Positions 1 to 6,186 of a stretch of DNA of 40,909 nucleotides are shown here, piece by piece (the first letter of the stretch is position 1; every line of letters starts with the position of its first letter). Source of the stretch: Caldifarciminota bacterium (lineage in GTDB: Bacteria > Hydrothermota > Hydrothermia > UBA1063 > CAJXJZ01); the NCBI GenBank assembly GCA_026986775.1, contig JALSNX010000016.1, positions 1-40,909 on the forward strand. Reading direction: 5' to 3'. A model generated the notes under the pieces. That model was not told the origin of the DNA. It saw only the letters and a list, made by a program, of their open reading frames with translations, and made no database searches. The translations under genes were made by a program, and so were the position numbers.

Positions 1-1
1 T

Positions 2-47
2 TACCCTCCTTCTTCCTTTTGTTGCCTTTATTAGAAGAAGGAGGGTA
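2..47. repeat. 14-bp perfect inverted repeat (hairpin)
   Basis: Arms at 2-15 and 34-47 are exact reverse complements (TACCCTCCTTCTTC / GAAGAAGGAGGGTA) separated by 18 nt. The right arm contains an AAGGAGG core but no start codon follows at a useful distance. It may be the terminator of a gene left of the window, although the following T tract is weak (CTATATTTTA), or one end of a small repeat element. The left context is cut off, so the role cannot be settled. Confidence 0.6.
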
Positions 48-61
48 CTATATTTTACTCG

Positions 62-119
62 TTTCGTGTAGTTTTTATCATGAGCCAATGATATACCTTT
101 CGTGTAGATTTTTAATGAG
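62..119. repeat. imperfect 22-23 bp direct repeat, 36-nt period
   Basis: TTTCGTGTAG occurs at 62-71 and again at 98-107. Each copy is followed by a T-rich run and ATGAG, so the similarity covers about 22 bp per copy with a start-to-start distance of 36 nt. There are only two copies and they lie just upstream of the lipoprotein promoter. It could be a regulatory duplication or a remnant of a repeat element. Confidence 0.5.
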
Positions 120-132
120 GCAACTCGTCTCT

Positions 133-161
133 TTGACACAGGAACAATTACCCATTATACT
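133..161 (+). promoter_or_regulatory. sigma70-type promoter of the lipoprotein gene
   Basis: TTGACA (133-138), a 17-nt spacer and TATACT (156-161) give a near-consensus promoter with a start point expected near 168. An AGGAGG ribosome site follows at 178-183. This shows that the open frame upstream of about position 168 is not part of the gene. Confidence 0.8.
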
Positions 162-189
162 TTATACCTACTCAAACAGGAGGGATAAA

Positions 190-1146
190 ATTAAATTTGC
201 AAAATATATACTGGCATTGGGGATAGTGGCACTCTTTATATCCAGCGCATGTAAAAAAGAGGAAACAAACGAACTTCCTGACATAAGTTCGTTTTTTACC
301 ATACAGAATGCTACAGCAAAAGAGGGCGACATGCCAGAATCACGGGGTCCACAGGACAGCACCCCAACTATCACAAGCATTTTTGGGAACAATTATATAG
401 TGCCTGGTGGAACAAATATCATATCCATCAAGGGAGAGGATGCACAGAACGACATAAAATACCTGATTGTTGGTGTTCAGGATGCAGCAGGTTATTATCT
501 TGTGAATTTTTCAGGAGACTCTATCAGGATTACCCTTACTCTGAATAACTCCCTGCCAAGGGATACCTTTGTTATCCTATTTGCACTACAGGATGAAGAG
601 CAAAACGTAAGTACAAGAAATACACTAACTGTGCAACAGGCACAGGTTCAGAGAGGAAAACTTGAAATTGCACTCTCATGGGACCTTTTAAATGATATTG
701 ACCTTCATGTGGTACAACCTGATGGTGAGGAAATCTACTATGGACATCCGGCAAGTACTGAGGGTGGCTACCTTGACCTTGATTCCAATGCAGGATGTTC
801 AATAGACAGCGTGAACAACGAACATATTATATACCCTGATACCGCAACCATACTGTCGGGAACTTACATTGTGCGCGTTGACTTTTATTCTGACTGTGTA
901 GGCTCAGGGATAACCCATTATGCAGTAATTGCAAGGTATAATGGTGAACTTATAAATCCCACATCAGGAAATAATCCAGAAGAGGGCACATTTGAGGCAG
1001 GAACAGACGATGGCGGCAGTGCAGGCTCGGGCGTTGAGGTAATGAGATTTAATATCTCTGGTGGTTCAAAAGTGTACTCCTTTAAATTTCCAAAACAGAA
1101 ACTACAGGAGAATAAAATCAGCAAATCCTGTAAAAAGTGTAAATAA
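190..1146 (+). CDS. lipoprotein with YfaP/DUF2135-like beta domain
   Basis: The protein is about 318 residues. It opens with a lysine, a hydrophobic stretch and the lipobox SSAC, so it is probably lipidated and anchored at an envelope membrane. After a low-complexity linker, a C-terminal region reads SWDLLNDIDLHVVQPDGEE and later GGYLDLDSNAGC, which resembles the YfaP/DUF2135 domain; its function is unknown. The frame is open back to position 19, but the promoter at 133-161 and AGGAGG at 178-183 lie inside that extension. The only in-frame codon 6 nt after the ribosome site is ATT at 190, so I infer a rare ATT start. The next in-frame alternative, TTG at 217, would remove the positive N-terminus and lies 33 nt from the ribosome site. 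The gene is monocistronic, followed by a strong terminator. Confidence 0.75.
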   Translation: MKFAKYILALGIVALFISSACKKEETNELPDISSFFTIQNATAKEGDMPESRGPQDSTPTITSIFGNNYIVPGGTNIISIKGEDAQNDIKYLIVGVQDAAGYYLVNFSGDSIRITLTLNNSLPRDTFVILFALQDEEQNVSTRNTLTVQQAQVQRGKLEIALSWDLLNDIDLHVVQPDGEEIYYGHPASTEGGYLDLDSNAGCSIDSVNNEHIIYPDTATILSGTYIVRVDFYSDCVGSGITHYAVIARYNGELINPTSGNNPEEGTFEAGTDDGGSAGSGVEVMRFNISGGSKVYSFKFPKQKLQENKISKSCKKCK

Positions 1147-1168
1147 GCATTCATTGTGTCTTTTTTGC

Positions 1169-1198
1169 AAAGCCCGCTCTGGCGGGCTTTTTTATTTT
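1169..1198 (+). terminator. rho-independent terminator
   Basis: A perfect 9-bp stem (AAAGCCCGC at 1169-1177, GCGGGCTTT at 1182-1190) with a TCTG loop is followed by a T-rich tract to 1198. It ends the lipoprotein transcript and separates it from the peroxiredoxin operon. Confidence 0.92.
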
Positions 1199-1248
1199 CA
1201 TATACATGCCTTCCCCATTAAAATTACTAAAAAATAAGGAGGATGGAT

Positions 1249-1719
1249 ATGTTGAAAACAGGTGAGAAAGCACCAGAATTCTGTCTCAAAGATGCAAATG
1301 AAAAGGATGTATGCCTTAAAGATTTTAGGGGAAAATACCTCGTCCTCTATTTTTATCCTAAAGATAATACCTCAGGTTGCACAAAGGAGGCTGTGGGTTT
1401 TTCTGAAAAGATAGATGAGATAAGAAAACTGGGTGCAGAGGTAGTTGGCATATCAAAAGACTCTATTAAAAGTCATCAGAACTTTATAAAAAAACACGAC
1501 CTTAAAATCATTCTGCTTTCTGACCCTGCACACGAGGTTATAGAAAAATACGGTGCATGGCAACTTAAAAAGAACTATGGTAGAGAGTACTACGGAACTG
1601 TGAGAACAACATATTTAATTGACCCTGAGGGTAAAATAGCATACGTATGGCCAAAGGTGAAGGTAAAGGGTCATGTGGAAGATGTGATTGCCAAACTCAG
1701 GGAACTTGCCCTAAAGTAA
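1249..1719 (+). CDS. bcp: peroxiredoxin, BCP/PrxQ type
   Basis: A thiol peroxidase that reduces hydrogen peroxide and organic hydroperoxides in the cytoplasm using thioredoxin-like donors. The 156-residue length fits BCP/PrxQ. The active-site block YPKDNTSGCTKEA carries the peroxidatic Cys44. In many PrxQ proteins a resolving cysteine sits five residues later; here that position is Val49, so this looks like the atypical or one-Cys form. Two further cysteines (12 and 22) lie near the N-terminus. I chose ATG 1249 over ATG 1243 because AAGGAGG (1236-1242) is directly adjacent to 1243 but 6 nt from 1249. A weak promoter (TTTTCA, 18 nt, TAAAAT ending at 1224) may serve the operon. The two genes downstream follow with short gaps. 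Confidence 0.93.
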   Translation: MLKTGEKAPEFCLKDANEKDVCLKDFRGKYLVLYFYPKDNTSGCTKEAVGFSEKIDEIRKLGAEVVGISKDSIKSHQNFIKKHDLKIILLSDPAHEVIEKYGAWQLKKNYGREYYGTVRTTYLIDPEGKIAYVWPKVKVKGHVEDVIAKLRELALK

Positions 1720-1757
1720 AATGTGTATCTTGAAATCAAAAACAAAAGGAGGTTAAA

Positions 1758-2951
1758 TTGGCCAACCTGAAAGTTGAAATAGCAGGCATTGAATTTAAAA
1801 ACCCTGTTCTTCCTGCAGCAGGTCCCCCTGTAAGGGACGCAAAGGCTATAAAGGACTGTGAGGAAGGTGGAGCAGGTGGCATTGTTACAAAAACCATATC
1901 AACGAAAGCAGCACCTGTTCCAAGACCTAATATGGCTGTATTGAACAGGGCAAGGATAGTGCAGATGTACAATACTGTTAAAAATGGCAAAGAACAGACC
2001 CTTGTGAAAACTGCATACAGAATGGACCAGGGCTTTATAAACACAGAACTCTGGACTGAGTTACCCTTAGAACAGTGGATTGAGAAGGAACTGCCATCAT
2101 TAAATGATCTTACAGTTCCTCTTATTGTATCTGTTGGCTACACACCGGATGATATGAAAAAGATTATACCTCTTCTTAAGGAATTTGATATTGATGCAAT
2201 TGAGTTTTCCACTCACTACATAGAACCGGGTATTATCACTGACATTATTAAAACCATAAAGAGCATTATGGATGTGCCTGTTTTTCCAAAACTCTCACCC
2301 CATCACACAGACCTTCTTGTCAGTCAGGCAAAGGAGGCAGAAAAGGCAGGGGCAGATGCCATCGTTGCCATTAACTCTTTTGGTCCCACACTCCATTTTG
2401 ACATCTATACAAGGAAACCCTATATGGGCTCAGAATTCGGGTTTGGCTGGATGAGCGGCCCGCCCATAAAACCCCTTGCTGTAAGGGCAGTTTTTGATAT
2501 TGCCCGCAACGTTAATATTCCTGTGATAGGGGTTGGTGGTATCTCAACTGGAAAAGACGCAATAGAACATATTATGGCGGGTGCAACTATAGTGGGAGTT
2601 TGCACACAGGCGATAATTGAAGGCAAAAAGGCATTTGGTCGTATTGCACGGGAAATTTCCGAAGAACTTGATAAGATGGGATTTTCGTCTTTAGAGGAAA
2701 TACGCGGACTTTACATAAAAGAAATGGGTGCTGGTCAGAAGGTTAGGATAGAAGGTGGTATTGCACGTCTTGTAGAGGACAAATGCACGGGGTGTAAACT
2801 CTGTGAAAGGGTCTGTCAGTATGAGGCCATTACTATGGTGAAAAAAGAGGGTATAAGACATCTTTTGCCAGAAATAAACGGAGAAAAGTGTGCAGCATGT
2901 GGGCTCTGTGTTTCTATATGTCCCACAGATGCACTGTATCTTGAATTTTAA
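1758..2951 (+). CDS. DHODH/PreA-like flavoprotein with C-terminal 2x[4Fe-4S] ferredoxin
   Basis: The 397-residue protein has a dihydroorotate/dihydropyrimidine dehydrogenase-type TIM barrel (about 1-310) followed by a ferredoxin domain. That domain has two CxxCxxCxxxC clusters starting at Cys343 and Cys378. FMN-binding features are visible: TKTIS near the N-terminus, the lysine of FPKLSP, and GVGGISTGKDAIEHIMAGA for the phosphate. The usual substrate loop of this superfamily (NxSCPN with its catalytic cysteine) is absent; the equivalent strand reads EFSTHYIEP. The substrate is therefore uncertain, and neither dihydroorotate nor pyrimidine reduction should be assumed. Translation starts at TTG 1758, supported by AAAGGAGG at 1746-1752. 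No PreT-type partner or other pyrimidine gene is nearby. Confidence 0.82.
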   Translation: MANLKVEIAGIEFKNPVLPAAGPPVRDAKAIKDCEEGGAGGIVTKTISTKAAPVPRPNMAVLNRARIVQMYNTVKNGKEQTLVKTAYRMDQGFINTELWTELPLEQWIEKELPSLNDLTVPLIVSVGYTPDDMKKIIPLLKEFDIDAIEFSTHYIEPGIITDIIKTIKSIMDVPVFPKLSPHHTDLLVSQAKEAEKAGADAIVAINSFGPTLHFDIYTRKPYMGSEFGFGWMSGPPIKPLAVRAVFDIARNVNIPVIGVGGISTGKDAIEHIMAGATIVGVCTQAIIEGKKAFGRIAREISEELDKMGFSSLEEIRGLYIKEMGAGQKVRIEGGIARLVEDKCTGCKLCERVCQYEAITMVKKEGIRHLLPEINGEKCAACGLCVSICPTDALYLEF

Positions 2952-2962
2952 AGGAGGCAGGT

Positions 2963-4528
2963 ATGAATCTTTTAGCGGCACTTTTGATTTTTGTTTATCC
3001 TCATTTAAAGATAGAGGCCTTCACAGATAGTGCAGGGCCATACATTGTGGTCCACGCTCCACACGTTTCAACGGATTTCACTCTCTACGTATCAGACCTT
3101 TCTTACGAAAAGGACTCCATCCTCAACTATTCCTATCCTGATTTTGACCTGTGGGACAGGAATAAAACAGAGAACAGTGTTTTTATATTCAGACCAACAA
3201 GGAGAAGAAAGTTTGAAAGGGGGAAGTTATATGCGATAAGGGCCTCTGTATTTGACCTTGAAGATAAAAACATGATTTCAAGCACCTACTATTTTTTCAG
3301 ATTAAATAATCGTGGGAAGATAGGGCTTGCACCATTTATATATCCTGTTATGCAGCTTTTAAGTGAAGATACCATCGGCATTTTCTTTGAATCAAACAAA
3401 CCGTGTTTTGCATCAATTACACTTCTTTTTAAAAATAGAAATCCAAAAACCATACTCCACAACAAAAAAATTAAAAGACACGAGTTCAAAATACCTTATG
3501 AAAATGGCCTTGAATACTACAGGTTTACACTGTTTACAAAGTATGACACCTTTGTATCACGCACCATACCTGTAAAATACAGGGGAGAAATTGAGCGTTT
3601 TGCCATCTTTGGAGACACGAGAGCCAACTGGGCAATGCCATCTCCCATAGGTCGTGCAGACGGGGTAAACGAAGAAGTTATAAACGATATTCTCAGGGCA
3701 ATCTACAAAGAAAACCCTGATTTTATTGAGATAAACGGTGACCTTATAACAGGATACACTGCTGATAGAGAAGACGCTCTCATGCAGTATCAGGCGTTTT
3801 TGAAGTCTCTTTATCCGTATGCGTCATCAATACCGTTTCTTTTCACAGCAGGTAACCATGATATGACTGCACCAATGGAAGGCGATCGCAAAAATCATAA
3901 TGACCCTGCACCACCAGAGAGTGCAGAAGACCTATGGGCATCTTTGTTCATGCAACCTGAAAATGGTCCTGTGGCTCGCAAGGGAATGCCTCCGTACAGA
4001 GAGAATGTTTATTTTATAGGCACTGATAACTGGGGTATATTCTTCTTAAACAGCGATTACAACTACGCTAAAAAGAACAGAAAGAGGATAAGTGGAAACA
4101 TAACCTTTGAAGAAACTGACTGGTTTCTGAAAGAAAGCCGGCGATTTAGAAATACAATTGTTATTTTTCATGAGCCTCTGTATTCCAATACAGGAATGCC
4201 TGGACACGCACTTGACTATGATATAAAATTAAGAGACTCTGTGGCAAACGTATTTTTCAACTCCAACGCAAAACTCATCTTAACGAGTCATGAACATCTG
4301 TATGCAAGAAGGAAGATACCTTTAAAAGACTCAGGAAAATGGCTCTATCAGGTAACTATTGGTGCAGGTGGCGCTCCAATATACAATGTGCCAGAAGACA
4401 AACGGAAAGGGCTTGACGCTTTTTCAAGAGAAACAGTTTTCGGACTTATCACCCTCAAAGGACACAGAATAAAAGGACTTATTAAGAATATCAATGGATT
4501 TACAGTTGATTACTTTGAAGTTAAATAG
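2963..4528 (+). CDS. exported metallophosphoesterase (purple acid phosphatase-like)
   Basis: The 521-residue protein begins with a short hydrophobic signal-like segment, so it is probably exported. An N-terminal beta-rich region (about 20-205) precedes a calcineurin-like phosphoesterase domain. Metal-binding motifs are GDTR (217-220), GDL (259-261), GNHD (297-300), His403 in HEPLY, and SHEHLYAR with His443 and His445. The first motif lacks the histidine of the classic DxH, as in purple acid phosphatases and their relatives. It likely hydrolyses phosphomonoesters or diesters outside the cytoplasm; the substrate is unknown. The start ATG 2963 has AAAGGAGG just upstream and lies 11 nt after the Fe-S flavoprotein. 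Its 3' end is 5 nt from the end of convergent recJ, with no visible terminator. Confidence 0.88.
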   Translation: MNLLAALLIFVYPHLKIEAFTDSAGPYIVVHAPHVSTDFTLYVSDLSYEKDSILNYSYPDFDLWDRNKTENSVFIFRPTRRRKFERGKLYAIRASVFDLEDKNMISSTYYFFRLNNRGKIGLAPFIYPVMQLLSEDTIGIFFESNKPCFASITLLFKNRNPKTILHNKKIKRHEFKIPYENGLEYYRFTLFTKYDTFVSRTIPVKYRGEIERFAIFGDTRANWAMPSPIGRADGVNEEVINDILRAIYKENPDFIEINGDLITGYTADREDALMQYQAFLKSLYPYASSIPFLFTAGNHDMTAPMEGDRKNHNDPAPPESAEDLWASLFMQPENGPVARKGMPPYRENVYFIGTDNWGIFFLNSDYNYAKKNRKRISGNITFEETDWFLKESRRFRNTIVIFHEPLYSNTGMPGHALDYDIKLRDSVANVFFNSNAKLILTSHEHLYARRKIPLKDSGKWLYQVTIGAGGAPIYNVPEDKRKGLDAFSRETVFGLITLKGHRIKGLIKNINGFTVDYFEVK

Positions 4529-4533
4529 CTATA

Positions 4534-6186
4534 TCAGTCCGACGGCTTTGCATCAATTATTTCAATAATCTTCTTTGAAAGGAATCTGTCCTCCCGCAGG
4601 GTGAAAACCACATCGCTTTTGCGGGAGGAAGTTATATTTGATATTACATCACTATTTCCAGCATAAACTGCTGTTTGAATATCGCCATTTATGTCTATTC
4701 TGAACTTGTAAAAGTTTTCCTTCAGCCTGTTAACAGCTCCAATGAGTTTTGCTCTCCTGAACAGAAACTTAGGCTTTGAGTTCCCCATGCCAAAGGGCTG
4801 AAAAAGGTCAAAGGATTGTATGAGTTCTTCTCTATTATAAACATCCGAAATGTCAAGGTCAATTTCAATTTCTTTTTCAAGATCATCTTCTGAAAGAACA
4901 CTTTTTGCATAGGCATTAATCCCCTCTTCAAATTTTTCAAGATTCTCGGGTTTTAAACTCAAACCTGCAGCGTATTTGTGCCCACCAAAGGTTTCAAGAT
5001 ATTCCCCCTGTGAAGAAATGGCCTCAAATATATTGAAGCCTGCGATACTTCTTGCTGAACCTTTCAATACGTCATCCTTGCGAGTGAGCAGTATTGCAGG
5101 TCTGTAAAATCTGTCAACTACCCTTGAAGCAACTATACCAACAACTCCTTCATGCCATCCAGGGTCATAGAGCACGTAAATTAACCTGTCGCCTTTCGCT
5201 TTAGCCATATTGATGGCCTCTTCAACCATATCTTTTTCTATACGCTGTCTTTTCAGGTTAAGATTATTTAGTTCCACAGCATGCTGTCTTGCAGTAACAC
5301 CCTGAGTGGTTACAAGTAGTTTAAAGGCCTTCATGGCATCTTCCATTCTACCTGCTGCATTGAGACGGGGAGCAAGTATAAAACTCACATGGTAGGTATC
5401 TATTGCACCGGATATTCCTGCAACATTTTTAAGTGCCTTAAGTCCTGCCTTCTTTGTTTTGTTCAGTATTGATATTCCAGCCTTGGCAAAGATTCTGTTC
5501 TCGTCTATAAGAGGGACGAGGTCAGAGATGGTACCAAGTGCAACAAGGTCAAGGTCCCAATAAAGTTCAGTTTTGTCCCTTTTTAACTTCTCATAGAGTC
5601 CTTCAAGTAATTTAAAAGCAACTCCAACACCAGCGAGATTATCATAGGGATAATCACCTAACTTGGGATTAATTATGGCATAGGATGAAGGCAGTGATTC
5701 TTTTGGTTCATGATGGTCTGTTATTATTACGTCTATTTTAAGGGAGTTTGCATATTCTATCTCCTCATAAGCAGTTATACCACAATCCACCGTTATAATA
5801 AGTGTGGCACCTGCTTTTGCTGCTTTCTCTATCCCCTGACGGGAAACTCCATATCCCTCATCAAATCTATTGGGCACATAGGCAAAAACCTCAAAACCAA
5901 GCCTCTTTAACACTCTGTACATTAAAGCAAGGGATGTAACCCCATCAACATCAAAATCACCGTGTATCAAAATCCTTTCATTTCTTCTAAGTGCAAGAAT
6001 AAGTCTATCTATCGCCTTCTCCATGTCCTTGAATTTGAAAGGTGAGTAAAGCGAACCAAGCCCTGGATAAAGATACATACCTGCCTTCTCAGGTTCTACC
6101 CCACGAACAGACAAAAGTAGCGATACAATAGGCGAAAACGTGTACTTTTCTATCGGAAATACAGGTTTCTTTAACTTCCAGCGCAT
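4534..6186 (-). CDS. recJ: single-stranded-DNA-specific exonuclease RecJ
   Basis: RecJ is a 5'-3' exonuclease on single-stranded DNA used in recombinational and mismatch repair. The DHH phosphoesterase core is clear: HGDFDVDG (75-82), VDCG (133-136) and the diagnostic TDHHE (156-160). A DHHA1-type substrate domain follows, with FGGHKYAAGLSL. At 550 residues it matches the family length. ATG 6186 is the first methionine of the frame. There is no Shine-Dalgarno sequence, and a -10-like hexamer ends 6 nt before the start codon, suggesting leaderless expression. The gene is divergent from the MarR operon and convergent with the phosphoesterase. Confidence 0.96.
   Translation of the reverse strand: MRWKLKKPVFPIEKYTFSPIVSLLLSVRGVEPEKAGMYLYPGLGSLYSPFKFKDMEKAIDRLILALRRNERILIHGDFDVDGVTSLALMYRVLKRLGFEVFAYVPNRFDEGYGVSRQGIEKAAKAGATLIITVDCGITAYEEIEYANSLKIDVIITDHHEPKESLPSSYAIINPKLGDYPYDNLAGVGVAFKLLEGLYEKLKRDKTELYWDLDLVALGTISDLVPLIDENRIFAKAGISILNKTKKAGLKALKNVAGISGAIDTYHVSFILAPRLNAAGRMEDAMKAFKLLVTTQGVTARQHAVELNNLNLKRQRIEKDMVEEAINMAKAKGDRLIYVLYDPGWHEGVVGIVASRVVDRFYRPAILLTRKDDVLKGSARSIAGFNIFEAISSQGEYLETFGGHKYAAGLSLKPENLEKFEEGINAYAKSVLSEDDLEKEIEIDLDISDVYNREELIQSFDLFQPFGMGNSKPKFLFRRAKLIGAVNRLKENFYKFRIDINGDIQTAVYAGNSDVISNITSSRKSDVVFTLREDRFLSKKIIEIIDAKPSD

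Follow-up and report, generated by a model that had tools for sequence, protein, structure and literature searches.

Organisation of the locus

The window, which is the whole stretch of DNA analysed here (40,909 nucleotides, contig JALSNX010000016.1 of a Caldifarciminota bacterium), begins within the end of an insertion sequence (IS). This is followed by a five-base target duplication and then by the promoter, Shine-Dalgarno sequence and coding frame of a putative lipoprotein gene. Contigs, loci and genomes used in the comparisons carry handles beginning with C, L and G, respectively. The features are as follows.

1 to 127, minus strand: transposase-proximal end of an IS, with 12 matches in its own genome; transcription of the transposase would run to the left, away from the lipoprotein gene, and its coding part lies off the contig
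62 to 76, no strand assigned: inner copy of a 15-nucleotide direct repeat, 93% identical to 98 to 112; probably an inner transposase-binding site
98 to 112, no strand assigned: outer copy of this repeat, at the terminus of the IS, found by repeat comparison
128 to 132, plus strand: target site duplication TCTCT
133 to 138, plus strand: -35 box TTGACA of the lipoprotein gene promoter, at offset +10 relative to GAGGCAA, which is conserved in the IS end
156 to 161, plus strand: -10 box TATACT, 17 nucleotides after the -35 box
178 to 183, plus strand: Shine-Dalgarno sequence AGGAGG, 6 nucleotides before the ATT
190 to 192, plus strand: start codon ATT; the aligned codon is ATG in four of four near-full-length relatives
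190 to 1146, plus strand: putative lipoprotein gene, 318 amino acids, with Cys at codon 21 (250 to 252), from the frame and alignment
1169 to 1190, plus strand: terminator-like hairpin 3' of the lipoprotein gene, from a sequence scan

This arrangement of promoter boxes, AGGAGG and ATT codon confirms the layout proposed in an earlier sequence-only reading. Of 18 promoter-like sites in positions 1 to 4600, that at 133-161 scores best, with 11 of 12 matches. Structure prediction for the RNA across the start region gave no signal (z 0.16), and Rfam and ARAGORN scans of the whole window gave no match. At E 0.001 the lipoprotein itself has no match in Pfam or NCBIfam, and at E 5 no Pfam family was over its cut-off. 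Further downstream, a dihydroorotate-dehydrogenase-like gene (window position 1758) has an apparent TTG start behind an AGGAGG, and L014 also has TTG at a comparable place.

Start codon of the lipoprotein gene

The lipoprotein frame is open from base 1, the start of the contig, to the stop codon at 1144-1146, and thus extends through the IS end and the promoter. The sequence-only reading held that automatic annotation would choose an ATG at position 19; codon 19-21 in fact reads TTG, and the first in-frame ATG codons are at 88 and 115, within the IS and 5' of the promoter. Since TTG19, ATG88 and ATG115 all precede the -35 box, they would be absent from an mRNA made from the 133-161 promoter. 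No ATG, GTG or TTG is in frame between the -10 box and ATT190, and the next candidates after ATT190 are CTG211, TTG217 and GTG226, none of which has a Shine-Dalgarno sequence and each of which would cost the protein its basic n-region. The existence of TTG217, CTG211 and the NTG codons inside the IS does provide other places in the frame where translation could begin, but with these deficiencies on one side of ATT190, the -35 box on the other, and relatives that start at 190, we consider a start elsewhere to be highly improbable.

The relatives come from a search with the lipoprotein of 60 genomes, including its own, which gave matches in nine: its own genome, four with near-full-length matches and four with partial ones. 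The near-full-length relatives L010, L011, L012 and L013 align from codon 1, with tblastn identities of ∼71, 59, 51 and 49% (72% for L010 by alignment). Each has an ATG at the codon aligned with ATT190 and its own AGGAGG before that ATG, which bears out the proposed start position; the more distant relatives L018 and L019 stand outside this count of four. The window protein and L010-L012 share a common start column in the protein alignment, and an N17 promoter lies at a similar distance from the start in L010, L011 and L012, but not in L013. Conservation further upstream in orthologues had been named beforehand as a sign against ATT190; no conserved protein is seen 5' of the start in the relatives, whose open in-frame stretches before it extend for merely 8, 8, 4 and 17 codons in L010, L011, L012 and L013, respectively. 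We conclude that, given the sequence as assembled, ATT190 is the start position. The lipobox signal peptide claimed for the protein stands in part: all four aligned proteins have the Cys of codon 21, whereas the lipobox is imperfect (S-S-A-C, with position -3 not aliphatic).

The ATT codon itself is unique among the five genes compared, those of the window and L010-L013. Since none of the four relatives shares it, this very rare start codon does not represent a conserved regulatory device. Its uniqueness, and the fact that the contig ends inside a repeat, would also be expected if the true codon were ATG (or GTG) and ATT an error of sequencing or assembly, 190 bases from the contig end. The contig break, however, is explained by a multicopy IS with copies that end at base 127, beyond which the bases are single copy, and the frame, Shine-Dalgarno sequence and promoter around the codon are all intact; a base error thus seems to us quite unlikely.

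Possible ATT initiation in this genome

The use of ATT starts was surveyed in 441 kb of the genome, comprising 20 stretches of 20 kb and the window. When an AGGAGG at a spacing of 5-9 and a frame of 100 or more codons were required, ATT was found 12 times, compared with 14 at control spacing, whereas the figures for ATG were 66 and 7. A strict filter left infC as the single ATT candidate in the 441 kb, against a background of 1 AAT and 4 AGG, and no ATA, ATC or CTG starts; ATT190 is dropped by this filter, owing to the NTG codons inside the IS and TTG217. With no enrichment after AGGAGG, and infC alone left by the strict filter, we rejected ATT as a general start codon of this genome.

The gene infC is the classical example of an ATT start. 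In this genome (L125:1207, contig C4) it has an apparent ATT start behind AAGGAGGT, with just GAT between the preceding stop codon and the ATT. An alternative start for infC is a GTG 22 codons later; the ATT is preferred. Given this apparent start of infC, AUU initiation is very probably usable in this organism.

In the lipoprotein gene, translation from AUU would be aided by the AGGAGG 6 nucleotides upstream and would proceed at a reduced rate, probably with discrimination by IF3. Low, IF3-sensitive expression of the lipoprotein would be expected, and IF3-sensitive control of the gene is plausible. As described in an excerpt from PMC13009471, infC has an AU-type start, and IF3 discriminates against such starts and regulates itself in E. 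coli; the same excerpt gives ∼10% of the activity of an AUG reporter for an AUU start in S. aureus in poor medium. Like infC, the lipoprotein gene has a rare AU-start behind a strong Shine-Dalgarno sequence. Unlike infC, which encodes a translation factor, it has four relatives that use ATG, and its regulation by IF3 is putative. It also resembles the S. aureus genes cvfC1 (AUU) and ccpN (AUA), which in that excerpt are likewise non-infC genes with non-canonical AU-starts behind strong Shine-Dalgarno sequences; in those genes, however, the codon is conserved among relatives and reporter-tested, whereas ATT190 is not conserved and is a predicted start.

A further possibility is that ATT is a real mutation that silences the gene completely or almost completely, as a stage towards its loss. 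In a genome of the same genus, G001, the conserved downstream genes are present and beside them lies only a relic of the lipoprotein gene, of ∼31-33 codons (L014:1501-1593). This is a case of gene loss; it indicates that loss of the lipoprotein gene is tolerated, so that the ATT, which is not conserved, could be a step in decay. Set against this, the 318-codon frame of the window gene is intact and 72% identical to L010, its promoter and Shine-Dalgarno sequence are in place, and AUU is probably usable here, as infC indicates. We regard decay as unlikely, and favour a start codon that still functions, if weakly.

The insertion sequence and its target duplication

Bases 1-138 have 12 matches in their own genome, of which eight are at a contig end or within ∼340 bases of one. 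The part common to these copies ends at base 127; there are 11 perfect occurrences of its terminal 26 bases. One copy, on C20, extends into sequence that encodes, on the opposite strand, the N-terminus of a transposase. For two relatives of this transposase, L040 (410 amino acids) and L043 (426 amino acids), the only Pfam match at E 0.001 is PF00665 (rve), over its cut-off, whereas the NCBIfam IS481 model NF033577 gives 48.6 bits for L040 and 62.4 bits for L043, against a curated cut-off of 224 bits. With an integrase core and a short target duplication both present, the element is a DDE/rve insertion sequence.

Nine contig ends carry a recognisable far end of the element, CCTATTGCCTCACG. The outer ends of elements in this genome are CCTATTGCC... 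and ...CAACTCG, and those of L043 are CGATC... and ...GACG. In the window, TCTCT separates the IS end from TTGACA, and the identical five bases precede the far IS end at the start of contig C30; TCTCT is the target duplication. Judged from this match, C30 would lie upstream of the window. A far end with the same 5-mer was found for five of eight near ends. Three of these pairs are at the strict offset (window/C30 TCTCT, C22/C10 GGCAC and C20/C22 GTTTT), for which the chance expectation is ∼0.07 in 72 comparisons, assuming equal base use, and two involve a shift of one base (C1/C18 GCAAT and C3/C27 GCCCC, the latter in a run of C). Complete elements elsewhere are flanked by ACCTC/ACCTC (L043), GGTAT/GGTAT (L085, read by eye) and GTTTT/ATTTT (L086, where one base differs). 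The flank on C30 showed no synteny with the flanks of L010, L011, L012 and L014, and the empty site is represented only by the two flanks joined together.

Other features of the IS ends may be mentioned here. Window positions 2-47 form a perfect 14-bp inverted repeat with an 18-nucleotide loop, in the transposase leader on the other strand, and L030 and L040 have hairpins of different sequence at a comparable place; perhaps these leader hairpins act as a brake on transposase expression. In L030, L029 and L031, which are degraded elements or solo ends in the same genome, the last 26 bases are intact and the remainder has diverged, and the end may have some use at the promoter.

Position of insertion sequence ends relative to promoters

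A search with the IS end of 60 genomes, including its own, gave 49 matches in 10 genomes, and all 49 were inspected. A -35 box was scored when at least four of six bases matched, and a -10 box when at least four of six matched, with A2 and T6 present, at 16-18 nucleotides from it; offsets of 1 to 26 were scanned. The consensus past the end of the element consists of five variable bases, TTGAC(A), 17 variable bases and TATAAT. Both boxes are found at offset +10, which places the -35 box exactly 5 bp from the IS end, in 36 of 49 sites, compared with two at most for any other offset; the two-box rule is satisfied by 0.42% of random positions in 400 kb of the window's own genome. The -35 box alone occurs at +10 in 38 of 49 sites, including the window, and in three at most at the other offsets scanned. 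It is the same one of the two IS ends that faces the promoter in all 49 sites, and the two ends must therefore be told apart. Six of the sites have tRNA genes downstream (Met, Glu, Ser, Trp, Arg and Lys).

Thirteen sites are exceptions to the two-box rule. In eight of these the -35 box matches at three bases or fewer but the -10 box at five or more; two have a -35 box and a weak -10 box, and three have neither box. L002, one of the sites with a poor -35 box, has this box shifted by one base. L072 is one of the sites with neither box; the other two are tandem matches in L115, next to an IS relic. In L115 (113-152) the tandem ends adjoin the 3' end of a transposase relic, which suggests that one element inserted next to an earlier one.

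At the end of contig C1 in the window's own genome (L233), an IS end of another type, GAGGAATAGAG, also fits the 5-bp rule, being followed by ATATC and then by TTGACA-N17-TATAAT.

Possible promoter recognition and proposed mechanism

Two explanations of this spacing require no recognition of promoters or of RNA polymerase. Insertion might be random, with the spacing a product of survival, or the transposase might read TTGACA directly. The evidence on IS placement consists of standing insertions only, among which those that broke genes or promoters would have been lost, and TTGA is present at most of the sites. Survival, however, does not explain a preference for one exact offset, as seen in the concentration of -35 boxes at +10. 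Direct reading of the word is at odds with the -10 boxes: all 14 sites with an exact TTGACA also have a -10 box, compared with 30 of 288 TTGACA words in 400 kb, and 8 of 11 sites with a poor -35 box have a -10 box matching at five or more bases at the right distance. We therefore see survival or word reading as a minority possibility, to be taken seriously but not preferred. Because sites with a poor -35 and a good -10 box are used at the exact distance, we favour recognition of the polymerase-bound promoter over direct reading of TTGACA.

The simplest account of the placement would be that the transposase recognises promoters, perhaps with RNA polymerase bound to them. Strand transfer would then take place at about -36/-41, the upstream edge of the polymerase core. 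The α C-terminal domains of RNA polymerase bind at this edge. Contact between transposase and polymerase is a step that we infer from the spacing, whereas the spacing itself is observed directly over many copies.

Taking the two halves of the locus together, we lean towards a reading in which the ancestral ATG of a conserved lipoprotein gene has changed to ATT190, and in which an IS that inserts in one orientation directly upstream of -35 boxes has landed next to its promoter. The upstream boundary of the gene would thus not be native; the IS would have inserted with duplication of TCTCT, leaving the promoter in place and replacing the DNA upstream of it. Transcription would be driven by the gene's own sigma70 promoter (133-161). 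The alignment of the start codon and the target duplication are matters of observation; weak AUU initiation and its sensitivity to IF3 we infer.

Comparison with known elements

Oriented insertion at promoters is already known, and it is the transposase family and the spacing that differ here. As described in an excerpt from PMC3942029, the TnGBS and ISLre2 elements, which have Mutator-type transposases (p-MULT 3), insert in an oriented manner upstream of sigmaA promoters, 15-17 bp from the -35 box, and elements of the ISKra4 group also insert upstream of promoters. Unlike the Mutator-type transposases of TnGBS, ISLre2 and ISKra4 in that account, those of L040 and L043 match rve only, and the distance from the end to the -35 box is 5 bp rather than the 15-17 bp given there for TnGBS and ISLre2. 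The likeness to the IS481 family is limited to a weak match, with a score far below the cut-off.

A parallel in geometry is found in the ISAjo2-type elements of the IS1202 family, which, according to a partial text of PMC10132070, insert 5 bp from XerC sites and produce 5-bp duplications. The elements described here share with that group, as portrayed there, a fixed orientation, a 5-bp duplication, a distance of 5 bp from a protein-binding site and, probably, an extra transposase-binding repeat inside the end. They differ from the IS1202 family in that text in their termini, which are C(G)...CG rather than TGT...ACA, and from the ISAjo2 group in their targets, which are promoters rather than XerC/dif sites. 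Yeast Ty elements, as summarised in PMC5911963, are retrotransposons found at RNA polymerase III genes; the likeness to these, that both land upstream of transcribed genes via the transcription machinery, is a functional analogy only. If the IS does home to polymerase, it might be regarded as the bacterial analogue of Ty elements, which home to RNA polymerase III genes.

In the open-licence literature we found no rve or IS481-like element with a promoter target; this is weak evidence, the TnGBS work having likewise been missed there. We think it fairly probable that a lineage of rve-type IS evolved homing to sigma70 promoters or RNA polymerase independently of TnGBS, ISLre2 and ISKra4, with a 5-bp stagger and one orientation, and that the window gene has in addition switched to an IF3-sensitive AUU start.

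The ATT start, if true, would be a non-infC addition to a short list, one with its ATG replaced and its frame, Shine-Dalgarno sequence and promoter intact. Alone it is of modest interest, and the IS matters more. Promoter-targeted insertion in a second DDE family, with another spacing, would mean that the promoter, or the polymerase on it, has been reached as a landing site more than once, and the rve-type IS could serve as a simple system for studying how a transposase reads a promoter. In practical terms, IS ends of this kind mark promoters in the genomes of unstudied bacteria, and gene callers may place false starts within them.

Distribution of the promoter rule

A search of the phylum with one transposase covered 147 genomes, including its own, and gave matches in 32. 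Of 18 loci inspected, 11 had a readable near end, one was masked there and six yielded none. A -35 box matching at five or more of six bases is present at the exact offset in 8 of the 11 readable ends (L043, L085, L086, L193, L194, L195, L198 and L208), although L043, L085 and L086 are not blind tests, as they initially came to attention by eye. In the other readable ends, L188 and L200 show mainly a -10 box and L101 neither box. Automatic detection of ends and duplications did not succeed for ends that differ by insertions or deletions; L085 and L128 were read by eye.

Actinobacterial relatives found on plasmids suggest that the promoter rule may extend outside the phylum. Seven actinobacterial loci gave an end, in a count that leaves aside L129; L152, L154 and L157 gave none. 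L128 and L159 have promoter boxes and a duplication, L155 and L158 a -10 box only, L156 a -35 box, and L151 and L153 neither box. The rule is absent from the alphaproteobacterial loci L126, L127, L130 and L160-L163 and from the betaproteobacterial locus L164; L165 gave no end. The elements described here differ in this respect from the ISBj12-like ISNCY elements of rhizobia, in which, at L126, L127 and L130, no promoter rule is seen. ISBj12 is the nearest named relative found on plasmids, with 33.7% identity over 83% of the L043 transposase.
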